In this document: positions 43,153 through 55,047 of the stretch, piece by piece
Position numbering within the stretch: the stretch's first letter is position 1
Layout: every line of letters starts with the position of its first letter
Source: Streptomyces sp. F001
GTDB lineage: Bacteria; Actinomycetota; Actinomycetes; Streptomycetales; Streptomycetaceae
Reading direction: 5' to 3'
Length of the DNA: 64,000 nucleotides
NCBI RefSeq assembly: GCF_004187715.1
Contig: NZ_QZWF01000005.1
Location: 372,001 to 436,000 of the forward strand
Translations under genes and position numbers: made by a program
Notes under the pieces: generated by a model
Seen by the model: the letters and a program-made list of their open reading frames with translations, nothing else
What the model was told of the DNA's origin: nothing
Database searches by the model: none

Positions 43153-44898
43153 GTGACCAGTACCGCGTCCTCCACGGACACCCGGCAGGAGCAGACCCCC
43201 CACGAGCAGCGGCCCTCGTGGCAGCAGCGGCTGCGCCGTTTCGGATACGTGCCGTCGGGATCCCGCGGCGATGTCCGGGACCGGCTGGTGCCGCCGTACA
43301 CCGAGCCCTCCCCGCGGCTGTGGGCGAGCCTCGGCATCCGGCACACGCTCGCCGAACGGCTCGTCCGCTGGGCGGGCTGGGGCGGTCCGCTGCTGGTGAC
43401 GCTGTTCGCGGGCGTGCTGCGGTTCTGGAACCTGGGCAACCCGAAGGCGGTGATATTCGACGAGACGTACTACGCCAAGGACGCGTGGGCGATCGTCCAC
43501 CGCGGGTTCGAGGTCAACTGGGACAAGAACGTCAACGACCTCATCCTCTCCTCGAACGGGAACGTCCCGATCCCGACGGACGCGGCGTATGTCGTGCATC
43601 CGCCGGTCGGCAAGTACGTCATCGGGCTCGGCGAGCTGATGTTCGGGTTCAACCCGTTCGGCTGGCGGTTCATGACCGCGCTGCTGGGCACCCTCTCCGT
43701 CCTGATGCTCTGCCGCATCGGCCGCCGCCTCTTCCGCTCCACGTTCCTCGGCTGTCTCGCGGGCGCGCTGATGGCGGTGGACGGTCTGCACTTCGTGATG
43801 AGCCGTACGGCGCTGCTCGACGGTGTGCTGATGTTCTTCGTGCTGGCGGCGTTCGGCTGTCTGCTGATCGACCGCGACAAGGCGCGGGAGAAACTGGCCG
43901 CCGCGCTCCGGGCGGACGCCGACGGCAGGGTCCGCCCGGACGCGGACACGGCGGAGAACACGCGGATCGGCTGGCGCCCCTGGCGGCTGGCGGCGGGCCT
44001 GATGCTGGGCCTGGCCCTCGGCACCAAGTGGAACGGCCTGTACATCCTGGCGGCGTTCTGCGTGCTGGCGGTGCTGTGGGACGTCGGCTCGCGCCGGGTC
44101 GCGGGCGCCCGCCACCCGTACATGGCGGTGATCAAGCGCGATCTGGGCTGGGCGTTCCTGTGCACGGTGCCGGTCGCCGTCGCCACCTACCTCGCCTCCT
44201 GGACCGGCTGGATCCTCTCCGCCACCGACGGTTCCGGCGGCTACTACCGCAACTGGGCCGCGACCGACGGCAAGAACAGCAGCTGGTCCTGGCTGTTCCC
44301 GGACTGGTGGCGCAGCCTGTGGCACTACGAGCACCAGGTGTACGAGTTCCACGTCGGCCTCTCCTCGCCGCACACGTACCAGTCCAACCCGTGGAGCTGG
44401 CTCGTCACCGGCCGCCCGGTGTCGTACTTCTACGAGTCGCCGGCCCCCGGCAAGGACGGCTGCCCGGTCGACGCCGGCGAGAAGTGCGCCCGCGAGGTGC
44501 TGGCGCTGGGCACGCCGATGCTGTGGTGGGTGGCCTGCTTCGCCCTCCTGTACGTCCTGTGGCGCTGGTTCTTCCGCCGCGACTGGCGGGCGGGCGCGAT
44601 CGCCTGCGGGATCGTGGCGGGTTATCTGCCCTGGTTCATGTACCAGGAGCGGACGATCTTCTTCTTCTACGCCGTGGTCTTCGTGCCGTTCCTCTGTCTG
44701 GCAGTGGCGATGCTGGCCGGTGCGCTGATCGGCCCGGCCCGCTCGAGCGACACCCGCCGGGTGGCGGGCGCGACGGGTGCGGGCGTACTGGTGCTGCTGA
44801 TCGCGTGGAACTTCATCTACTTCTGGCCCCTGTACACCGGCACCGCGATCCCGATCGACGACTGGCGTTCACGAATGTGGCTGGACACCTGGGTCTGA
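43153..44898 (+). CDS. pmt: Protein O-mannosyltransferase (GT39)
   Basis: Pmt transfers mannose from polyprenyl-phosphate mannose to secreted proteins. The protein has 581 residues with ~10-11 membrane segments. The first outer loop carries the acidic motif [11 protein letters not shown], and another conserved part is [15 protein letters not shown]. In S. coelicolor pmt is needed for phage phiC31 infection and affects antibiotic sensitivity. The GTG start is 62 bases from the divergent rsmI start, so the promoters overlap. Confidence 0.92.
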
Positions 44899-44988
44899 CG
44901 GCCGGTCTAACAATCTGAGAAACAGCCGCCCCTCCCTTCGCAGCTCCCGCCTAGAGTGCGGAGATCGAGTAGGGGGAGGGGGCGCATC

Positions 44989-46617
44989 GTGCGCAAGGGG
45001 GTCAAGGCTGCCGTCGTCGGCAGTGTGTTCGTCGTGATGGTGGGAGGGGCCGGGTACGGCGCCTTCAACCTCGTGTCCGCGCTGAACGGTGACGGCTCGG
45101 CCGGCTCGGCCGGCCAGGAGGCCGTCAAGACCGGGCCGCCCAGCAGTGCGGAGGTCGAGGAGACGACCCGCGCGTTCTTCGCCGCGTGGGAGAAGGCGCA
45201 GGGCGCGAAGGCGGCGTCGTACACGAACAACGCGTCGGAGGCCGAGCCGCTGCTGACCTCCTTCGGGCAGGACGCGCACCTCACCGCCGTGAAGATCACG
45301 CCCGGTGAGGCGACCGGCCGTACGGTCCCCTTCTCGGTGAAGGCGACGGTGTCGTACGACGGGAAGTCCAAGCCGCTCGCGTACGACAGCCGCCTCACCG
45401 TCGTCCGCGGGGTCACCACCGGGCGGGCGCTGGTCGACTGGAAGCCGTCCGTCGTCCATCCCGCCCTGAAAGACGGCGACACCCTCGTCACCGAGGAGGC
45501 GGCGAACCCGCCCATCGAGGCGGTCGACCGCGACGGCACCGTCCTGACGAAGGAGAAGTACCCCTCGCTGGGCCCGATCCTGGACGAGCTGCGCGCCCGC
45601 TACGGCGACAAGGCCGGCGGCACCCCCGGCGTCGAACTCGCCGTCCGGCACACGGCGGGCGAGGCGGCCGACACCTCGCTGCTGACCCTGTCCGAGGGCA
45701 AGCCGGGCAGACTGCCGACGACCCTCAGCGCGAGCGTGCAGGCGGCGGCCGAGAAGGCGGTCAAGGAGTACGACGAGTCGTCCGTGGTCGCCGTCAAACC
45801 GAGCACCGGCGAGGTGCTGGCGGTCGCCAACAACCGCACGGACGGCTGGAACGCGGCGTTCCTCGGCCAGGTGGCGCCCGGCTCCACGATGAAGATCCTC
45901 AGCGCGGCCATGCTCATCGACAACGAGCTCACCAGCATGAACGGTCCTGCGCCCTGTCCCGACTCGGCGATCTCGGAAAGCCAGACCTTCCACAACATCA
46001 CCGGCATGACGCCGAACGAGAACGCGACCCTCTCCGAGAGCTTCGCCCGCTCCTGCAACACGGCCTTCATCAAGTTCGCGGACGAGGTGCAGGTGGACTC
46101 CCTGACCAAGGAGGCGCAGGAACGCTTCGGGCTCGGCCAGGACAACTGGAAGGTCGGCATCCCCTCCTTCGACGGCTCGGTCCCCGCCGCCGGCGGCCCG
46201 GACACCGCGGCCAACATGATCGGCCAGGGCCAGGTCCAGATGAGCCCGCTGAACATGGCCTCGGTGACGTCGACAGCGATGACGGGCACGTTCCGGCAGC
46301 CGGTGATCGTGCCGCAGCGCCTCGACGACCGTGAACTGGCCCGGGCGCAGGGCCTGTCGGGCAGCACCGTCGCCCAGCTGCGCGCCATGATGAACCGCAC
46401 CGCCACCAGCGGCACCGCGGCCGGTGTGATGTCCCGGCTGGGCGGCGACATCGGGGCGAAGACCGGTTCGGCGGAGGTGGACGGGCAGGCCAAGGCCAAC
46501 AGCTGGTTCACTGGCTATCGCAACGACGTTGCGGCGGCGGCCATGGCTCAGCAGGGCGGTCGCGGCGGTGACGCGGCCGGTCCGATCGTGGCGGCCGTCC
46601 TGCGGGCGGGTGGCTGA
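44989..46617 (+). CDS. Penicillin-binding protein (class B type), first of two
   Basis: The protein has 542 residues. An N-terminal helix anchors it. An NTF2-like MecA_N domain covers ~45-165 (EETTRAFFAAWEKAQ), then a dimerisation region. The transpeptidase carries SxxK as PGSTMK, SxN as RSCN, and KTG as GAKTGSAEVDG. It cross-links peptidoglycan. I start at GTG 44989, with GGGGGAGGGGG ~8 bases upstream. A close paralogue follows 151 bases later. Confidence 0.9.
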   Translation: MRKGVKAAVVGSVFVVMVGGAGYGAFNLVSALNGDGSAGSAGQEAVKTGPPSSAEVEETTRAFFAAWEKAQGAKAASYTNNASEAEPLLTSFGQDAHLTAVKITPGEATGRTVPFSVKATVSYDGKSKPLAYDSRLTVVRGVTTGRALVDWKPSVVHPALKDGDTLVTEEAANPPIEAVDRDGTVLTKEKYPSLGPILDELRARYGDKAGGTPGVELAVRHTAGEAADTSLLTLSEGKPGRLPTTLSASVQAAAEKAVKEYDESSVVAVKPSTGEVLAVANNRTDGWNAAFLGQVAPGSTMKILSAAMLIDNELTSMNGPAPCPDSAISESQTFHNITGMTPNENATLSESFARSCNTAFIKFADEVQVDSLTKEAQERFGLGQDNWKVGIPSFDGSVPAAGGPDTAANMIGQGQVQMSPLNMASVTSTAMTGTFRQPVIVPQRLDDRELARAQGLSGSTVAQLRAMMNRTATSGTAAGVMSRLGGDIGAKTGSAEVDGQAKANSWFTGYRNDVAAAAMAQQGGRGGDAAGPIVAAVLRAGG

Positions 46618-46768
46618 TGTCACCCACATCTCACCCGCACAGGACGGGACTCTAGGGTGGGGCCGTCGTTGGGGACTGTGAGTGCTACGAGGCCGGTACG
46701 GCCGCACGGGGTCGTAGCCGGCCATGCGGGGCGGTGGGACCCGGGAATGCGCGGAGGATCGGGAAGCA

Positions 46769-48442
46769 GTGGGCAAGAGAAGGCGCGTCGCCGAGCGACG
46801 GAAGACGAAGCCCGCCGTCATCGGCGGGATGATCGCCGTGGTCGTCGGCGGTGCCGGGATCGGCGCCTACGCGCTGTTCGGTGGCGGGGCCGCGGCCGAG
46901 GACGGCACGTCGGCGACCTCCGCCGGCGGGAAGAAGTCCGTGAAGACCGGCCCGCTGTCGGCCACCGAGGTCACCACCGCCGCCCAGGAGTTCCTCACGG
47001 CCTGGCAGCAGGGCCGGGTGCCGCAGGCGGCGGCCGCCACGGACGACGCCACCGCGGCGAAGGCCCTGCTGACCGCCTACGCCAAGGACGCCCACATCGA
47101 GGACGTCACGCTCACCCCCGGCACCCGCACGGGCGACCGGCTCCCGTTCACCGTGAAGGGCACGGTGTCGTACAAGGGGGTCAGCAAGCCGCTGTCGTAC
47201 GAGAGTTCACTGAAGGTCGTACGACAAGAGGCGGACGGCACGCCGATCGTCGCCTGGGAGCCGTCCGTCGTGCACCCCGACCTGCGTTCCGGTGACCGGC
47301 TGGTGACCGGCGAGTCCGGGACCCCGCCGGTGACGGCGCTGGACCGGGACGGCGGGGAGCTGACGACGAAGGAGTACCCGTCGCTGGCGCCGGTGCTGGA
47401 CGGGCTGCGCGAGAAGTACGGCAAGACGGCGGGCGGCAAGGCGGGCGTCGAGCTCCAGGTGGTCCGCGGGAAGGCCTCCCAGGCCAAGGAGCTGTCCGAC
47501 AAGACGCTGCTGGAGCTGAGCGAGGGCACACCAGGCAAGGTGAAGACGACGCTCAGCCCGTCGATGCAGGCGGCGGCGGAGGACCAGGTCGCCTCGAAGG
47601 CGCGGGCGTCGGTGGTCGTGCTGCGGCCCTCGACGGGCGAGATCCTGGCGGTCGCGAACGCCTCCCGCGGCTTCAACACCGCCTTCCAGGGCTCGCTGGC
47701 GCCCGGTTCGACGATGAAGGTCATCACGTCATCACTGCTGATCGAGAAGGGGCTGGCGTCCTCGGACAAGCAGCATCCGTGCCCCAAATACTTCTCGTAC
47801 GGGGGCTGGAAGTTCCAGAACGACGACAAGTTCCAGATCAAGGGCGGGACGTTCAAGGCGAGCTTCGCGCGGTCCTGCAACACGGCGTTCATCAGCCAGG
47901 CGCCCGAACTGGCCGACGACGATCTGACCAAGCAGGCGCAGCAGGTGTTCGGCCTGTCGCAGAACAACTGGTCGGTCGGCGTACCGACCTTCGACGGCGC
48001 CGTGCCGGTGCAGTCCGACGCCCAGATGGCGGCGTCGCTCATCGGGCAGGGCGGGGTGCGGATGAACCCGCTGAACATGGCATCGGTGTCGGCGACGATC
48101 AAGTCGGGCGTCTTCCACCAGCCGTACCTGGTCGCCCCGTCGGTGGACGGACGCAAGCTGGCCACGGCCTCGCGCACGCTGTCCGCGTCCGCCCTGTCGC
48201 AGCTGCGGGAGCTGATGGCCTACACGGCGGCGTACGGTACGGCGGCGGAGGCGATGGCGGGAGTCACCGGTGACGTCGGTGCGAAGACCGGCTCCGCCGA
48301 GGTCGACGGTCAGAAGAAGCCCAACGGCTGGTTCACGGCGTACCGGGGTGACCTCGCCGCCGCGGGCGTCGTCCAGTCGAGCGGGCACGGCGGGGAGACG
48401 GCGGGACCGATCGTGGCGGCGCTGCTGAAGCAGGGCGGCTGA
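46769..48442 (+). CDS. Penicillin-binding protein (class B type), second of two
   Basis: The protein has 557 residues with the same layout as its neighbour: basic head, membrane helix (AVIGGMIAVVVGGAGIGAYAL), NTF2-like domain, and a transpeptidase with PGSTMK, ARSCNTAF and GAKTGSAEVDG. The two share long blocks such as GDxGAKTGSAEVDGQ, so they are a tandem duplication. GTG 46769 begins MGKRRRVAERR, after a GGGAAG. They are likely adapted to vegetative and sporulation wall growth, which is inference. Confidence 0.9.
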   Translation: MGKRRRVAERRKTKPAVIGGMIAVVVGGAGIGAYALFGGGAAAEDGTSATSAGGKKSVKTGPLSATEVTTAAQEFLTAWQQGRVPQAAAATDDATAAKALLTAYAKDAHIEDVTLTPGTRTGDRLPFTVKGTVSYKGVSKPLSYESSLKVVRQEADGTPIVAWEPSVVHPDLRSGDRLVTGESGTPPVTALDRDGGELTTKEYPSLAPVLDGLREKYGKTAGGKAGVELQVVRGKASQAKELSDKTLLELSEGTPGKVKTTLSPSMQAAAEDQVASKARASVVVLRPSTGEILAVANASRGFNTAFQGSLAPGSTMKVITSSLLIEKGLASSDKQHPCPKYFSYGGWKFQNDDKFQIKGGTFKASFARSCNTAFISQAPELADDDLTKQAQQVFGLSQNNWSVGVPTFDGAVPVQSDAQMAASLIGQGGVRMNPLNMASVSATIKSGVFHQPYLVAPSVDGRKLATASRTLSASALSQLRELMAYTAAYGTAAEAMAGVTGDVGAKTGSAEVDGQKKPNGWFTAYRGDLAAAGVVQSSGHGGETAGPIVAALLKQGG

Positions 48443-48474
48443 CGCGCAAGCGCTCCGCTGGGAGTGCTGGCATG

Positions 48475-48545
48475 GGCCGTCGGTCGTCTGCGGCGCCATC
48501 GTGGCTGGTCGCGCAGTTCCCCGCGCCCCTTCAGGGCACTTCGCC
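48475..48545. repeat. Dispersed Streptomyces repeat, reverse orientation
   Basis: On the minus strand it reads GCCCTGAAGGGGCGCGGGG, then CTGCGCGACCAGCC and GCCGCAGACGACC. This is the same skeleton as the element at 42147-42250. It lies between the second PBP and ssgE (convergent) and could double as a terminator. Confidence 0.6.
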
Positions 48546-48553
48546 CGACCTGC

Positions 48554-48913
48554 TCAGCTGTGTACCGGCGTCGCAGCCGCCAGGTACGTCCGGCGCAGGA
48601 AGCGGATCAGGGTCTTCATGTCGAGCTGCACGACCGCCGTGCCCTGCGCGGAGTGGAACTCGACCACAGCCTGCACCCGCCCGCACGGCCACACCCGTAC
48701 CTCGCCGTCGCCGGCCGGTGCGCGCAGGCCCTGTTCGAGCAGGGACCGGGAGAAGGACCACTCGTGCGGGCCGGGCAGACGTATGCGGACCGCGCGCGGG
48801 TCGATGTCGGGGTCGTAGCGCAGAACGACCGGAACCGCTCCCTTCTCCTCGAGTATCTGGACGTCCTCGTCCGTGACGATCTGGGCTCGTGCGTACTGTT
48901 CGACTACAGACAT
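48554..48913 (-). CDS. ssgE: SsgA-like sporulation protein
   Basis: SALP proteins are small actinomycete-specific regulators of septum formation and spore wall remodelling. This one has 119 residues and the family core: VPVVLRYDPDIDPRAVRI, WSFSRSLLEQGL and VRVWPCGRVQAVVEFHSAQG. Position next to two PBPs and upstream of cbiM matches ssgE of S. coelicolor, which affects timely spore separation. The assignment to ssgE rather than another SALP rests on synteny. Confidence 0.88.
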   Translation of the reverse strand: MSVVEQYARAQIVTDEDVQILEEKGAVPVVLRYDPDIDPRAVRIRLPGPHEWSFSRSLLEQGLRAPAGDGEVRVWPCGRVQAVVEFHSAQGTAVVQLDMKTLIRFLRRTYLAAATPVHS

Positions 48914-49055
48914 CGGACGGCCCTTTCACCCTGCGTGAGCTGTGCGGAAGCTATGCATCCACTTCCACTCCAATGTCCCATATTTTCGGGATTATGCTCG
49001 CCGGACGGGCGATGTCCTATGCACGCGCATGAAGCAACGGGAGACTGCCTCGCTC

Positions 49056-49086
49056 TTGCAAGACATTCGCATTAAGCCACTATCAT
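49056..49086 (+). promoter_or_regulatory. Nur-box-like site and promoter of the cbiM operon
   Basis: TTGCAA-GACAT-TCGCAT (49056-49072) resembles the nickel-uptake-regulator consensus TTGCAA-N5-TTGCAA at 10 of 12 half-site positions. TATCAT at 49081-49086 looks like a -10 box, placing transcription start at about the GTG 49093 itself. There is no Shine-Dalgarno before the GTG, so the message is probably leaderless. I found no cobalamin-riboswitch features in the 179-base gap. Confidence 0.5.
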
Positions 49087-49092
49087 CGAACG

Positions 49093-50160
49093 GTGCATGT
49101 ACCTGACGGATTCATCAACGCCCCCACCTCCGCCGTGGCCGGCGTCGTCGCCGCGGGCGCCGTCGCCGTCAGTCTGCGTGGCGCGCGCCGCGAACTCGAC
49201 GAGCGCACCGCGCCGCTGGCCGGTCTCGTGGCGGCGTTCATCTTCGCGGTGCAGATGCTGAACTTCCCGGTCGCGGCCGGGACCAGCGGACATCTGCTGG
49301 GCGGTGCCCTCGCCGCGATACTCGTCGGCCCCTACACCGGCGTCCTGTGCATATCCGTGGTCCTGCTGATGCAGGGCATCCTCTTCGCGGACGGCGGCCT
49401 GACCGCACTGGGCGTGAACATCACCGACATGGCGATCGTCGGTGTCGTCGTCGCCTACGTCGTCTTCCGCGGCCTGGTGAAGGTGCTGCCGCGCAGCCGG
49501 CGCTCGATCACCGCGGCCTCCTTCGTCGCCGCCCTGGTGTCGGTGCCGGCCGCCGCCCTCGCCTTCACGCTGCTCTACGCGATCGGCGGCACCACCGACG
49601 TCTCCCTCGGCAAGGTCACCACCGCCATGGTCGGCGTCCACATCCTCATCGGCATCGGCGAGGCCGCGATCACCGCGCTCACCGTCGGCGCCGTCGTCGC
49701 CGTCCGGCCGGACCTCGTGTACGGCGCCCGTGACCTGCGCCGGCCGCTGAAGCTGCGGGTCGGCGGCGAACTCGTCGACGCGCCCGCCGCGGAGCCGGTC
49801 GCCCTCGCCACGCGCTCTCACCGCAAGGTCTGGCTCGCCGGCCTGGTCACCTCCCTCGTCCTCGCCGGTTTCGTCAGCTTCTACGCCTCCGCCAGCCCCG
49901 ACGGTCTGGAGAAGGTCGCCGAGGACAAGGGCTTCGCCGAGTCCGCCGAGGAACACGACATCGCCGACTCCCCGCTCGCCGACTACGGCGTCAAGGACAT
50001 CGACAACGCCCGTCTGTCCGGCGGTCTCGCCGGTGTGATCGGGGTCGGCGTCACCGTCGTCGCGGGCAGCGGCATCTTCTGGGCGGTGCGCCGCCGGCGC
50101 AGCGACGAGGGAACCGACGTGTCGCCCGTCTCACCCACGAACACGAACACGGGCGTCTGA
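49093..50160 (+). CDS. cbiM: Nickel/cobalt ECF transporter, fused CbiM-CbiN subunit
   Basis: This is the substrate-specific membrane subunit. The protein has 355 residues. The N-terminus MHVPDGF fixes the GTG at 49093 as the start, because His2 and the free N-terminus bind the metal in this family. ~7 membrane segments span 10-225, with HLLGGALAAILVGP and the second His. A C-terminal PDGLE domain (ASPDGLEKVAEDKGF) and a last helix correspond to CbiN. cbiQ and cbiO follow. The Nur-like site points to nickel. Confidence 0.92.
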   Translation: MHVPDGFINAPTSAVAGVVAAGAVAVSLRGARRELDERTAPLAGLVAAFIFAVQMLNFPVAAGTSGHLLGGALAAILVGPYTGVLCISVVLLMQGILFADGGLTALGVNITDMAIVGVVVAYVVFRGLVKVLPRSRRSITAASFVAALVSVPAAALAFTLLYAIGGTTDVSLGKVTTAMVGVHILIGIGEAAITALTVGAVVAVRPDLVYGARDLRRPLKLRVGGELVDAPAAEPVALATRSHRKVWLAGLVTSLVLAGFVSFYASASPDGLEKVAEDKGFAESAEEHDIADSPLADYGVKDIDNARLSGGLAGVIGVGVTVVAGSGIFWAVRRRRSDEGTDVSPVSPTNTNTGV

Positions 50161-50161
50161 C

Positions 50162-50923
50162 ATGGGTGCGGGCCACGCCCACAAGCTCTACCGGGCGGGG
50201 TCCTCACCCGTGCACGCCCTGCCGCCGCACACCAAGCTCGCCGCCGGCTTCGCCTTCGTCGTGGTCGTGGTGTCCACCCCGCGGGAGGCGATGTGGGCGT
50301 TCGGGGCGTACGCCGTGCTGCTGGGCGCCGTCGCCGCCGTCGCGCGCGTGCCCGCCGGTTTTCTGCTCAAACGGCTGCTGATCGAGGTGCCGTTCGTCGC
50401 GTTCGCCGTGCTCCTGCCGTTCGTTGCGGAGGGCGAGCGCACCGAGGTGCTGGGCATGTCGCTGAGCGTCAGCGGACTGTGGGGCGCCTGGAACGTGCTC
50501 GCCAAGGGCACGCTGGGCGTCGCCGCGTCCGTGCTGCTGGCCTCCACCACCGAACTGCGGGAGCTGCTGCTCGGCCTGCAGCGGCTGAAGCTGCCGCCGC
50601 TGCTGGTGCAGATCGCGTCGTTCATGATCCGGTACGGCGATCTCATCACCGACGAGATGCGGCGGATGCGCATCGCGCGGGAGTCACGGGGCTTCGAGGC
50701 GCGCGGCATACGGCACTGGGGGGTGCTGGCGAAGTCCGCCGGGGCCCTGTTCATCCGCTCCTACGAGCGCGGTGAGCGCGTGCATCTCGCGATGGTCAGC
50801 CGGGGCTACGCCGGTGTGATGCCGGTGATCGACGAGGTGACCGCGTCCCGGGCGCAGTGGTCGTACGCCCTCGCGCTGCCGTGTGCCGCTCTTGTCGTCT
50901 GTCTGCTGGGATGGGTCCTGTGA
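50162..50923 (+). CDS. cbiQ: ECF transporter transmembrane protein CbiQ
   Basis: CbiQ couples ATP hydrolysis to the substrate subunit. The protein has 253 residues, ~5 hydrophobic segments, and the two short cytoplasmic A-x-x-x-R-G coupling motifs (IARESRGFEARG and MVSRGYAG). It starts one base after the cbiM stop and its stop overlaps cbiO. Confidence 0.92.
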   Translation: MGAGHAHKLYRAGSSPVHALPPHTKLAAGFAFVVVVVSTPREAMWAFGAYAVLLGAVAAVARVPAGFLLKRLLIEVPFVAFAVLLPFVAEGERTEVLGMSLSVSGLWGAWNVLAKGTLGVAASVLLASTTELRELLLGLQRLKLPPLLVQIASFMIRYGDLITDEMRRMRIARESRGFEARGIRHWGVLAKSAGALFIRSYERGERVHLAMVSRGYAGVMPVIDEVTASRAQWSYALALPCAALVVCLLGWVL

Positions 50924-51678
50924 CTGCTTCTTTGGAGGTCTCCGGCCTCGCCTTCGCCTACCCCGACGGGCACCAGGCCCTCTTCGGCGTGGACTTCCGC
51001 GTCGAGCGCGGCGAACGGGTCGCGCTGCTCGGGCCGAACGGGGCCGGCAAGACCACGCTGGTGCTCCATCTCAACGGCATCCTCACCGGCGGCACGGGCT
51101 CGGTACGGGTCGCCGGGCTGCCCGTCGGCAAGAAGAACATGGCCGAGATCCGGCGCCGCGTCGGCATCGTCTTCCAGGACCCCGACGACCAGCTCTTCAT
51201 GCCGACCGTCCGCGAGGACGTCGCCTTCGGGCCGGCTGCGGCCGGGCTGACGGGGGCGGAACTCCAGGCGCGCGTGCAGCGAGCGCTGGACCAGGTGGGG
51301 ATGGCCGACTTCCAGGACCGGCCCCCGCACCATCTGTCCTTCGGGCAGCGGCGCCGGGTGGCCGTCGCGACCGTGCTGGCCATGGAGCCGGAGATCCTCG
51401 TCCTGGACGAGCCGTCCTCCAACCTCGACCCGGCCTCCCGTCGCGAACTGGCCGACATCCTGCGGTCCCTGGACGTGACCGTGCTCATGGTCACCCACGA
51501 CCTGCCGTACGCCCTCGAGTTGTGCCCGCGCTCGCTGATCCTGAGCGACGGCGTCATCGCCGCCGACGGTCCGACCGGCGACCTGCTCGGCGACGACGCG
51601 CTCATGCGGGCGCACCGTCTGGAGCTGCCCTTCGGCTTCGACCCACGGTCGGTGCCGGCCGGGTCGGGGCCCGCGTGA
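50920..51678 (+). CDS. cbiO: ECF transporter ATPase CbiO
   Basis: The ATPase of the complex. Walker A is GPNGAGKTTLV, the Q-loop FQDPDDQLF, the signature LSFGQRRRVAVA, and Walker B ILVLDEPSSNLDP; the H-loop is MVTHDLPYAL. The protein has 252 residues. GTG 50920 overlaps the cbiQ stop (GTGA); ATG 50911 is possible. It is the last gene of the transporter operon; a MarR gene follows after 46 bases. Confidence 0.92.
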   Translation: MTASLEVSGLAFAYPDGHQALFGVDFRVERGERVALLGPNGAGKTTLVLHLNGILTGGTGSVRVAGLPVGKKNMAEIRRRVGIVFQDPDDQLFMPTVREDVAFGPAAAGLTGAELQARVQRALDQVGMADFQDRPPHHLSFGQRRRVAVATVLAMEPEILVLDEPSSNLDPASRRELADILRSLDVTVLMVTHDLPYALELCPRSLILSDGVIAADGPTGDLLGDDALMRAHRLELPFGFDPRSVPAGSGPA

Positions 51679-51724
51679 TGCGTTTCCGTGACCGCCGTCC
51701 CCCGGCGTCCGTGACAATGGGCAC

Positions 51725-52186
51725 GTGACGGAACACGAGGACGCCGGGTCGCTGCTGCTGGACGAGCAGCTGTGCTTCGCGCTGTACGCCGCCCAGCGCG
51801 CGGTGACGGCCGCGTACCGCCCGCTCCTCGACGAGCTCGGTCTGACCTACCCGCAGTACCTCGTGCTGCTCGTCCTGTGGGAGCGCGGCGAGACCACGGT
51901 CAAGGAGCTGGCGGCGGCGCTCCGGCTCGACTACGGGACGGTGTCACCACTGCTCAAGCGGCTTGCGGCGGCGGGGCTCGTACGCCGGGAGCGCGCGGCG
52001 CACGACGAGCGCTCGGTGCTGGTTGCCTGCACGGGGCGCGCGGAGGAACTGAGGGAGCGTGCGACTCGCGTGCCGGGCGCGCTGCTCGCGACGACGGGGC
52101 TCGGCGCGGCGGAGGTCGCACGGTTGCGCGAGGAGTTGTGGCAGCTCGCGCAGCGGGCGGGAGCGGCGGCCGAGAGCGCCCGCTGA
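51725..52186 (+). CDS. ohrR: OhrR-type MarR regulator
   Basis: OhrR senses organic hydroperoxides through a reactive Cys near the N-terminus. Here it is in LDEQLCFALYAAQRAV, the typical context, with the conserved Tyr residues nearby (YRPLLDELGLTYPQYL). The winged helix follows (TTVKELAAALRLDYGTVSPLLKRL). The protein has 153 residues. The ohr gene follows in the same direction, which supports the assignment. Confidence 0.9.
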   Translation: MTEHEDAGSLLLDEQLCFALYAAQRAVTAAYRPLLDELGLTYPQYLVLLVLWERGETTVKELAAALRLDYGTVSPLLKRLAAAGLVRRERAAHDERSVLVACTGRAEELRERATRVPGALLATTGLGAAEVARLREELWQLAQRAGAAAESAR

Positions 52187-52267
52187 CGACGCGCACAGCG
52201 CACCACGCGCCCTGTTACCCCCGGTCACTACCCCCCAGTAGCCCAACAAGCCCTACCCGCCAGTACC

Positions 52268-52290
52268 TTGTGCACGATGTACTTGCACGC
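52268..52290. promoter_or_regulatory. Candidate OhrR operator before ohr
   Basis: The ohrR-ohr gap contains CTTGTGCACGATGTACTTGCAC, with inverted GTGCA (52270-52274) and TGCAC (52284-52288). It lies 46-66 bases before the ohr start, a sensible operator position. The symmetry is short, so confidence is limited. Confidence 0.4.
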
Positions 52291-52335
52291 CGCTGTGCTG
52301 CCTGCCGTTGTGTCCGCTCTGGGGGAGGTCCTGCC

Positions 52336-52806
52336 GTGACCGAAGACACCGCTGTCGAGACCGCCGTCGACACCGTCCTCGACACCCGCCCGACGAAGAT
52401 CATGTACGTTGCCGAGGCCACCGCGCACGGCGGCCGGGACGGCTATGTCACCAGTCAGGACGGCCAGATCGAACTGAAGGTGGCGATGCCTCCGGAGCTC
52501 GGCGGCGACGGCAACGGCACCAACCCGGAGCAGCTGTTCGCGGCCGGCTACAGCTCCTGCTTCCACAACGCGCTGGTCCTGGTCGGCCGTCGGGCGGGCT
52601 ACGACCTGTCGGGTTCCGCGGTCGCCGCGAAGGTCGGCATCGGCCCCAACAAGCAGCGCGGCTACGGCCTCGCGGTCGCGCTCAGCGTCTCCCTGCCCGT
52701 CCTCGACCCGGACATCGCCACGAAGCTGGTCGACGCGGCCCACGAGGTCTGCCCGTACTCGAACGCGACCCGCGGCAACATCGACGTCACGATTCTGCTG
52801 GGGTGA
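52336..52806 (+). CDS. ohr: Organic hydroperoxide resistance peroxidase Ohr
   Basis: Ohr reduces organic hydroperoxides using lipoyl-dependent recycling. The protein has 156 residues. Both catalytic Cys are present: AAGYSSCFHNAL and HEVCPYSNATRGN. The GTG at 52336 has GGGGGAGG ~8 bases upstream. An N-terminal extension of ~15 residues (TEDTAVETAVDTVLDTRP) precedes the usual start of the fold. Confidence 0.93.
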   Translation: MTEDTAVETAVDTVLDTRPTKIMYVAEATAHGGRDGYVTSQDGQIELKVAMPPELGGDGNGTNPEQLFAAGYSSCFHNALVLVGRRAGYDLSGSAVAAKVGIGPNKQRGYGLAVALSVSLPVLDPDIATKLVDAAHEVCPYSNATRGNIDVTILLG

Positions 52807-52870
52807 CGAAAACCACCCGGAACCAAGGAATCGCCGGCCGTACGTCCGCGCTGCACCCACCGTCACAGGC

Positions 52871-54052
52871 GTGAGTGAACGGAGTGCGGACGTGGATGTG
52901 CACGGCACGGTTGCCGAGGGCTTCGAGCCGGTCAGGGCAGCGTTCGTACAGAACTTCGAGGCGCTCGGCGACCGCGGCGCGGCCGTGGTCGTCCACCGCG
53001 ACGGGCACAAGGTCGTCGACCTGTGGGGCGGCACGAAGGACGTCGACGGCAGTGAGCCGTGGGAGCAGGGCACCGCGCAGATCGTGCGCTCGGCGACCAA
53101 GGGCGTCGCCGCCGCCGCACTCCTGCTGCTGCAGCAGCGCGGCGAGCTGGACCTGGACGCGCCGGTCGGCGAGTGGTGGCCGGAGTACAAGGCGGCCGGC
53201 AAGGAGCGGACCCTCGTACGGCATCTGCTCACGCATCGCGCGGGGGTGCCGGTCCTGGACCGTCCGCTGACCCCGTCGGAGGCGGCCGACCCGGACCTCG
53301 GCGCCGCGGCGGTGGCCGCGCAGACGCCGGTGTGGGAGCCGGGAGCGGACCACGGGTACCACGCGCAGACGTACAGCTGGCTGGTCGGCGAGCTGATACG
53401 GCGGGTCACCGGGCGTGAGGTCGGTGAGTGGATCGCGGACGAGATCGCGGGCCCGGTCGGCGCCGACCTGTGGCTCGGGCTCCCCGCGGACCAGGCCGCC
53501 CGGGTCGGACGCGTCGGGCAGGTCGCGCCCCCGGAGCCGGCCGGCGCACTGAGGACGCGCCCCAAGCGAGCCGTGGCCGACGCCTACGCCGACCCCGCGT
53601 CCCTCACCCGCCGCGCCTTCGCCGCGATCACGCCCCTGCCCGACGAGAACGACCCCGCCTACCGCGCCGCCGCCCTCCCCGCCTCCAACGGCATCGCCAC
53701 GGCGGAGGGCCTGTCCCGCTTCTACGCCGCGCTGATCGGCGACGTGGACGGCGGGCAGCGCCTGTTCACCCCGGAGACGGCCGAACTCGCCCGCGCCGAG
53801 CAGTCCGCGGGCCCCGACCGCACCCTTGTCATCACCACCCGCTTCGGCCTCGGCTACATGCTGGACGGCGCCGCCTCCCCGCTGCTCTCCCCGGCCTCCT
53901 TCGGCCACCCGGGCCGCGGCGGCGCCCTCGGGTTCGCCGACCCGGAGGCCGGCATCGCCTTCGGCTATGTCACGAACGGCTTCCGCAAGAGCGTCACGGC
54001 GGACCCGAGGGCACAGGCACTGGTGCGCGCGGTACGCCAAGCCATCGCGTAG
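52871..54052 (+). CDS. Beta-lactamase-fold serine hydrolase (EstB-like)
   Basis: The protein has 393 residues and no signal peptide, so it is cytoplasmic. The catalytic SxxK is in VRSATKG, the Tyr region is YHAQTYSW, and the third motif is FGHPGRGG (HxG in place of KTG). This is the pattern of family VIII esterases and class C-like hydrolases. The substrate is unknown. The GTG at 52871 has no strong ribosome site; GTG or ATG codons a few residues later could serve. Confidence 0.82.
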   Translation: MSERSADVDVHGTVAEGFEPVRAAFVQNFEALGDRGAAVVVHRDGHKVVDLWGGTKDVDGSEPWEQGTAQIVRSATKGVAAAALLLLQQRGELDLDAPVGEWWPEYKAAGKERTLVRHLLTHRAGVPVLDRPLTPSEAADPDLGAAAVAAQTPVWEPGADHGYHAQTYSWLVGELIRRVTGREVGEWIADEIAGPVGADLWLGLPADQAARVGRVGQVAPPEPAGALRTRPKRAVADAYADPASLTRRAFAAITPLPDENDPAYRAAALPASNGIATAEGLSRFYAALIGDVDGGQRLFTPETAELARAEQSAGPDRTLVITTRFGLGYMLDGAASPLLSPASFGHPGRGGALGFADPEAGIAFGYVTNGFRKSVTADPRAQALVRAVRQAIA

Positions 54053-54077
54053 CAACCACACAGCGACCACGGGTGGG

Positions 54078-54620
54078 TCACTTCGTGACGGCCCGGAACT
54101 GCCACGCCTGACGCACGTCGCCCTTCCGGGGGAGCTGAAGGTCGACGCGGGGCGGGTAGACCGCCAACGGGCTCCGGTCGAGGACCAGTTCGCTGTCGGG
54201 AGCCTGGAGGTGGAAGGCGAGGAAGCCCCTGCCCGTGTGCAGCGCCGGGCTCAGCCCCCACTCGTACGGGGTGCTCGTCGTCACGGCGAACCGGTGCGGC
54301 CGGAACGTGCCCTGATGGCCCACGTAGGTGTTCTGCCGGATGTTACGCAGGGCGATGTTGCCGTGGGTGAGCCGCACCACCTCCCACTCCTGGGCGCCCG
54401 GCGCCGCACCGGGCGGCAGGATGACGAGCGGTTCGTCGACGCCCTGGGCGGTGAGGAGCTGCCCGGGGTTCTTGGCGATGGTGTAGGTCCCGCCGGCAAG
54501 GGGCGCCGGCCGGCTCGTGGCGGCCGCCGCCCGGGGGGCACCGGCGGTGAACAGGGCGGCCAGACTGGTGGCGGCGACGGTGCCGAGCGCACGGCGTCGG
54601 CTCAGAGGCTGTTGCGTCAT
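54078..54620 (-). CDS. Tat-exported beta-trefoil protein (I66 inhibitor-like)
   Basis: The protein has 180 residues. Twin-arginine signal SRRRALGTVAATSLAALF ends in APRAAAA. The mature part (GGTYTIAKNPGQLLTA, NIALRNIRQNTYVGHQG, LVLDRSPLAVYPPRVDL) shows three repeating strands in a beta-trefoil pattern like I66 serine protease inhibitors. Inhibitor activity is inference. The start at 54620 is chosen over 54710 because it begins the signal peptide. Confidence 0.7.
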   Translation of the reverse strand: MTQQPLSRRRALGTVAATSLAALFTAGAPRAAAATSRPAPLAGGTYTIAKNPGQLLTAQGVDEPLVILPPGAAPGAQEWEVVRLTHGNIALRNIRQNTYVGHQGTFRPHRFAVTTSTPYEWGLSPALHTGRGFLAFHLQAPDSELVLDRSPLAVYPPRVDLQLPRKGDVRQAWQFRAVTK

Positions 54621-54771
54621 GCGCCGATCGTGCCGCGTCGCCGCCTCCCGTGAACCGCCCTGGGCCCGTTTGACCAGGCCTTTCCCCCGGTCGGGCGACC
54701 TGACGGCCACCTCCGGTTGTGCGTACGGCCAGGACGTAACTGCCGAGACGTACGACTAGGACGTACGGCGA

Positions 54772-55047
54772 TCAGACGTGAATCGGGTGCGACGTCCGCC
54801 CGGACACCGAGTCGATCTCGCCGTGCGCCTTGGTGAGCAGCTGCATCGCGAGCTCGTTGAGCGCCCGCGCCCCAGCGATCTCCTCGCCGACCCTTGGCTG
54901 ATTAGGGTCGGTGTGGTGCCGGCTGGCGTGCCCGTGGGCTCGAACCTCACTCCCGTCGGGCAAGCGCACCAACGCGGCTGCCTTCGTGTGCGTGTCGTCC
55001 TCCTGAAACTCCAGTTCGACATGCCATCCCACAGCGGTGTGCATCAT
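54772..55047 (-). CDS. DUF1876 domain protein
   Basis: The protein has 91 residues: WHVELEFQEDDTHTKAAALVRLPDGSEVRAHGHASRHH... This is the DUF1876 fold, a small alpha-beta protein similar to double-stranded-RNA-binding folds, widespread in actinobacteria. GGAGGAG lies before ATG 55047, and ATG 55044 follows directly. The function is unknown. The long open frame upstream (to 55665) is a shadow of the phosphoesterase. Confidence 0.82.
   Translation of the reverse strand: MMHTAVGWHVELEFQEDDTHTKAAALVRLPDGSEVRAHGHASRHHTDPNQPRVGEEIAGARALNELAMQLLTKAHGEIDSVSGRTSHPIHV

Follow-up and report, generated by a model that had tools for sequence, protein, structure and literature searches.

A probable nickel importer operon of Streptomyces with a conserved Nur-like box over its promoter and a putatively leaderless message

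The closest described systems are the Nur regulon of Streptomyces coelicolor (sodF and nikABCDE; PMC3919588, PMC7055735), the leaderless mRNAs of Streptomyces and mycobacteria (PMC4895711, PMC4681348, PMC4633059) and the NikMNQO/CbiMNQO ECF transporters (PMC2667541, PMC7689651). According to these papers, the Nur box is tTGCaa-N5-ttGCAA and nickel is scarce late in batch growth (both PMC3919588); AUG opens 76.4% of the leaderless mRNAs of S. coelicolor, and the translation efficiency of leaderless messages rises slightly with growth phase (both PMC4895711); in mycobacteria, both AUG and GUG function at the 5' end (PMC4633059). A message is leaderless in the published definitions if its leader is under 9 or 10 nt.

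The operon described here lies within “the window”, i.e. the whole stretch of 64,000 nucleotides that was analysed. The explanation that we favour, and hold with considerable confidence, is that this operon (49093-51678) encodes a Nik-type ECF importer (PDGLE-fused S component, T component and ATPase) which is repressed by Nur and transcribed from a single promoter (-35 TTGCAA at 49056, -10 TATCAT at 49081) as a leaderless mRNA, the +1 being the G of the GTG start codon at 49093. Nickel-loaded Nur (encoded at C3:129578) would sit on 49056-49072, cover the -35 element and block RNA polymerase; under nickel shortage, Nur would leave, and sodF and a nikA-like operon would be derepressed together with the importer. 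Transcription would then begin at the G of GTG, with ribosomes engaging the mRNA directly at its 5' end. The pairing of a late nickel shortage with a late gain in leaderless translation is suggestive only.

Operon and promoter anatomy

The features of the region (window coordinates) were as follows:

48554-48913, opposite strand: SsgA-family gene upstream of cbiM (domain search)
49056-49072, plus strand: Nur-box-like inverted repeat TTGCAA-GACAT-TCGCAT, two mismatches to the published tTGCaa-N5-ttGCAA (PMC3919588), kept in relatives
49056-49061, plus strand: left half-site TTGCAA, putatively doubling as the -35 element (-37 to -32 if +1 is 49093)
49062-49066, plus strand: N5 of the box, GACAT
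49067-49072, plus strand: right half-site TCGCAT
49073-49080, plus strand: TAAGCCAC, between the box and the -10 element
49081-49086, plus strand: -10 element TATCAT (TANNNT; -12 to -7 if +1 is 49093)
49087-49092, plus strand: CGAACG, the 6 bases between the -10 element and GTG
49093-49095, plus strand: GTG start codon, putatively also the +1 of the mRNA
49093-50160, plus strand: cbiM/nikM-type S component fused to a PDGLE domain, MHVPDGF..., 355 aa (Pfam CbiM 203.9 bits, PDGLE 82.1 bits)
50162-50923, plus strand: cbiQ-type T component (TIGR02454, 171 bits, above cut-off)
50920-51678, plus strand: cbiO-type ATPase (TIGR01166, 217.1 bits, above cut-off; start picked by eye)
51725-52186: MarR-family gene downstream of the operon (domain search)

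The genes cbiM, cbiQ and cbiO almost touched each other (49093-51678), the first 4 nt of cbiO lying within the end of cbiQ, and the components of an ECF nickel/cobalt transporter (CbiM/NikM, CbiQ and CbiO) were all present; the PDGLE part is presumably NikN-like. Upstream of the SsgA-family gene were two consecutive penicillin-binding-protein genes (44956-48442), both with transpeptidase and MecA_N domains. A look by eye through the frames of 44000-55000 revealed no urease, hydrogenase or B12 gene. Control of the window cbiM by a riboswitch was considered and rejected: at gathering scores, there was no riboswitch in the window and no Rfam match in the loci of 20 relatives searched whole, including the one with the longest leader (L192).

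When the sequence was re-read, the box, TATCAT and GTG were found where the preliminary description had placed them. GTG 49093 was the first ATG, GTG or TTG in the cbiM open frame, and the spacer between the -35 and -10 elements was 19 nt. Shine-Dalgarno matches were scored against the anti-16S string GAAAGGAGGTGAT; no match of at least 4 nt was present 3-13 nt 5' of GTG 49093, in agreement with the earlier statement that cbiM has no ribosome site.

Leaderless and leadered loci

The loci compared comprised the best 80 of 562 relatives, the 29 best matches from 197 genomes drawn from the order (169 of the 197 had some match), 40 loci picked from the weaker matches listed, and 18 loci from 18 of 19 further genomes (the 19th had a cobalt-type match alone); they are not a random sample, and their proportions are not natural frequencies. 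Including the window, 168 regions were classified; removal of 13 duplicates left 155, three of which were boxless by script, and the counts were made on the remaining 152. The nearest relatives, among the best 80 of the 562 matches, were nearly all Streptomyces. Two of these three loci were clipped at contig ends and do have the box: L139 (leaderless, GTG) and L186 (leadered, ATG). Two cbiM relatives (G140:C113 and G033:C45) had one TGA within the matched frame, which may reflect decay, a sequencing error or an early frame end.

A start codon was found at the expected +1 in 97 of the 152 loci (“leaderless” type, window included): GTG in 95 and ATG in 2. The other 55 loci (“leadered” type; ATG in 53, GTG in 2) had the box farther from the start codon, at 44-204 bp. 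Shine-Dalgarno matches of at least 4 nt were found in 0/97 leaderless versus 52/55 leadered loci (the three lacking one were L145, L155 and L193), and matches of at least 5 nt in 0/97 versus 16/55. By chance, a 4-nt match was present in 23% of 7600 random upstream 20-mers, and in 17% (leaderless) and 35% (leadered) of shuffled upstreams.

The gap between the -10 element and the start codon was 6 nt in 87 of the 97 leaderless loci and 7 nt in the other 10, and -10 variants (TAAAAT, TACTAT, TAGAAT, TATTAT) stood at the same distance from the start; the distance from box to start varied (19-21), although that from the -10 element was near constant. The hexamer was CATCAT, a weaker one, in 30 of the 97, and the spacer was 18 or 19 in all of them, taking TTGCRA as the -35. 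Leadered loci had a G at the equivalent +1 place in 47 of 55 cases; the triplet there was most often GTT (35 loci), in place of the GTG of the leaderless type. The fixed gap, together with the G kept at +1 in leadered loci, indicates that the promoter sets the position of the start codon, and points to an mRNA that would be leaderless, with +1 at the G of GTG 49093. The leaderless layout put forward in the preliminary description is supported by this comparison: 97 loci have a start codon at the standard distance from the -10 element and no Shine-Dalgarno match.

A very short leader of 1-5 nt (with transcription starting, for instance, at A49089 or G49092) instead of none was judged unlikely. 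Promoter spacing alone leaves +1 unfixed to the base, and the 7-nt gap of ten leaderless loci fits such a leader; base 7 after the -10 element is, however, the standard place for +1, and a G was kept there in the 47 leadered relatives, which have no start codon at that place. By the published definitions a message with a 1-5 nt leader is still leaderless, so that this alternative overlaps with the favoured explanation of a start at the G of GTG.

The native MH N-terminus of CbiM had been offered as the reason for a leaderless start. This link was rejected: MH was present in 55/55 leadered loci classified (the clipped L139 and L186 alone failed the check) and also in the cobalt-type CbiM of the same genome, whose gene has a long leader, so leaderlessness and N-terminus are independent.

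The operator, the repressor and the metal

The pattern CTCTTGCRA-N5-TYGCAW, scanned in up to 400 bp upstream, was present with at most 3 mismatches in 152 of 153 correctly placed loci and with at most 2 in 150 of 153; the reversed pattern reached 3 mismatches or fewer in 2/153. None of the first 81 loci (the best 80 of 562 plus the window) exceeded 2 mismatches; L169 and L200 were counted on a 3-mismatch box, the level met by the reversed control in those 2/153. The box was missing in one correctly placed locus only, L154 (G112 contig 97), which had ATG and a Shine-Dalgarno match, and where Nur control may have been lost. With respect to the published consensus, the 152 loci showed 0 mismatches in 1 case, 1 in 73, 2 in 47, 3 in 30 and 4 in 1.

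The motif TTGCAA-N5-TTGCAA, with at most 2 mismatches, occurred once in the 64-kb window (0.24 expected), and at least once in 20 of 100 shuffled windows. The whole genome (9.72 Mb) had 16 such places versus 26 for the reversed control, and genome-wide enrichment of the motif was rejected. The motif alone is weak evidence, and the argument rests on position and conservation: 16 places in 9.72 Mb correspond, by simple arithmetic, to a chance of about 2 in 10,000 that a box lies about 100 bp or less from a given start. One of the 16 places was directly before an intact sodF, another before a shortened sodF copy and another 33 nt before the nikA-like gene (box end to ATG). A third Nur-like box on contig 6 of this genome (G000), with 2 mismatches, was observed between sodF and the nikA-like gene (356690-356706; L111:6691-6707), 110 bp before the frame MATDIHL..., which is acetyltransferase-like by eye.

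The shortened sodF (G000 contig 18, L114:1616-1897, minus strand) had a perfect Nur box at C18:31351 and consisted of a 93-codon frame (70 aa from the likely ATG) with only part of the C-terminal SOD domain left; behind the box were 19 nt exactly antisense to the 5' region of sodN and a strong terminator-like hairpin. In published work, s-SodF arises by cleavage of the sodF mRNA, and S. bingchenggensis sodF2 is similar to the shortened copy, with a large deletion (PMC3919588); the copy may be kept only for the s-SodF small RNA. In another genome (G006 contig 1, 6226500-6228300; L253), a perfect Nur box led after 10 nt into the anti-sodN stretch and then a hairpin, sodF coding sequence being absent from this interval; the arrangement stood beside a permease gene that looked by eye like the one next to the shortened sodF. 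This locus is a candidate free-standing Nur-controlled small RNA gene. A loose pattern (TTGC-N9-GCAA, 4-34 nt, antisense 18-mer) was found in 10 of 392 Streptomyces genomes (L257-L266), and in none with the backwards control.

Five Fur-family proteins are encoded in the genome. The one from contig 3 (C3:129578) scored 292.4 bits against S. coelicolor Nur (3EYY), the next chain reaching 82; both a Nur gene and a conserved tTGCaa-N5-ttGCAA-like box over the promoter were therefore present. The proposal that this box overlaps the -35 region (TTGCAA at -37 to -32 if +1 is 49093) was likewise supported by the comparison with relatives. Behind the nikA-like gene came two permease genes and, at a greater distance, a gene for an ATPase; the best match of the nikA-like protein was NikA (191 bits, below the model cut-off of 393). 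The genome also encodes NiSOD, NiFe hydrogenase and urease. A second, cobalt-type set was found elsewhere:

G000 contig 7, 329019-329853 (L112): cobalt-type cbiM paralogue, MHIAEGFLPP, followed by separate cbiN and cbiQ

A cobalamin riboswitch ends 30 nt before the start of this paralogue, which therefore has a long leader; its protein scored 283.5 bits with the solved chain of the cobalt protein 5x3x and 72.7 with 4m58. The closest solved relative of the window CbiM was 4m58 (85.9 bits versus 47.8 with 5x3x), which we take to be the nickel S component NikM2, although its PDB name is CbiM. Two ECF sets, one per metal and each with its own control, are the natural reading, and the importer of the window is probably for nickel, under Nur. 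The earlier suggestion of nickel rather than cobalt import is favoured by these scores, by the Nur-like box and by the separate riboswitch-controlled cobalt set.

An operator for another metal repressor (a different Fur-family member or a cobalt sensor) in front of a cobalt importer was considered improbable, somewhat more so than a very short leader. There are five Fur-family proteins to choose from, and the best NCBIfam models for the window CbiM are named cobalt CbiM, all of them scoring below their cut-offs; against this, the half-sites match the published Nur box, sodF and the nikA-like gene, both known kinds of Nur target, have such half-sites in front of them too, and cobalt has a set of its own behind the cobalamin riboswitch.

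Base frequencies were calculated from 53 right-anchored upstream regions (the window and 52 of the best 80, box-to-start 20 bp). The mean frequency of the commonest base was 0.93 in the half-sites, 0.60 in the N5, 0.94 in the -10 element and 0.41 at -100 to -48; T, A and T of TANNNT were invariant (53/53). The conserved footprint thus consisted of box, -10 element and start, and stopped at about -48 upstream. A second promoter, with transcription starting well upstream and the conserved block serving as a mere operator within a leader, is compatible with the sequence alone but highly improbable, given the poor conservation beyond -48, the lack of Shine-Dalgarno matches in all 97 leaderless loci and a block that holds both promoter elements at standard spacing.

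History of the leader and comparison with known systems

Four changes between leadered and leaderless types were counted in a FastTree tree of the 152 genes, all of them forced by starred branches, and five in an IQ-TREE tree of 96 genes (all 55 leadered and 41 of the 97 leaderless), four of them forced by starred branches; change counts alone do not separate loss from gain. The root of the IQ-TREE set, L200, belongs to another family of the order and was scored as leadered; it has a long branch and a 3-mismatch box, with no clear -10 element found behind it. The other deep branches were leadered in both trees, which makes repeated loss the simplest reading, and the leader was probably lost repeatedly among the relatives. 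The two leaderless ATG genes (L068 and L072) each stood beside a leadered ATG sister (L058 and L082), and the larger leaderless groups carried GTG, as would be expected if the leader of L068 and L072 had gone recently and ATG predated GTG. In an independent-pair test with only 4 pairs, leader and Shine-Dalgarno match coincided in a mean of 3.9 of 4 (median p 0.125), whereas ATG went with the leader in 2 of 4 and showed no difference in the other 2; neither association reached significance. Fisher tests, which disregard kinship, were left out of the evidence.

These observations can be joined in a single reading that we put forward tentatively and regard as rather doubtful as a whole. The Nur-repressed nickel-import promoter would have stayed fixed and the whole leader would have been lost at least 4 separate times, each loss putting the start codon on +1; young losses would keep ATG (L068 and L072) and older ones would move to GTG, matching the G at +1. 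Selection for the loss would come from an advantage of leaderless messages late in growth, when nickel is short and Nur releases its targets, so that a single base would mark the beginning of the transcript, the start codon and the end of a nickel-controlled promoter.

SCO3159-SCO3161 are presumably the S. coelicolor orthologues of the window operon, and no openly licensed paper was found naming SCO3159, SCO3160 or SCO3161. SCO5958-SCO5961 had first been taken for these orthologues and were discarded; SCO5958 is tied to a B12 riboswitch in one paper. Among the matches listed, no report of a Nur-controlled CbiM-type nickel importer in Streptomyces was found in openly licensed papers, nor one of repeated leader loss at such a promoter in the openly licensed literature. 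The Nur repressor and leaderless messages are known kinds; the proposed ECF-importer target and the probable repeated leader loss were absent from the literature searched.

If the favoured explanation is true, a second nickel importer joins the Nur regulon, and a metal is indicated for a common Streptomyces operon to which the NCBIfam models give a cobalt name. Close relatives also provide a natural experiment: their orthologues share promoter and protein, and some have a leader and Shine-Dalgarno sequence where others lack both. In it, the cost or benefit of leaderless translation and the choice between GUG and AUG become directly testable.

With the S. coelicolor Nur regulon, as described in PMC3919588 and PMC7055735, the locus would have in common the repressor, the box consensus and a box over the promoter. 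The targets differ: the NikABCDE ABC importer or FeSOD in S. coelicolor, an ECF importer here. The nikA-like gene of this genome, with its box ending 33 nt before ATG, has no comparable leaderless layout. The NikMNQO/CbiMNQO transporters (PMC2667541, PMC7689651) likewise have their S, T and A components encoded together in an operon, the MH N-terminus and H67 (counted by eye versus 4m58); here, by contrast, the PDGLE part is fused to the S component. The leaderless mRNAs of Streptomyces and mycobacteria (PMC4895711, PMC4681348 and PMC4633059) share with the proposed message a start codon at or beside the 5' end, which is predicted in our case, the lack of a Shine-Dalgarno sequence and a TANNNT -10 element. 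Published leaderless mRNAs usually begin with AUG, as in the 76.4% recorded for S. coelicolor, so that a conserved GUG (95 of 97 loci) is unusual; and, unlike them, the leaderless genes described here have leadered orthologues with the same box.
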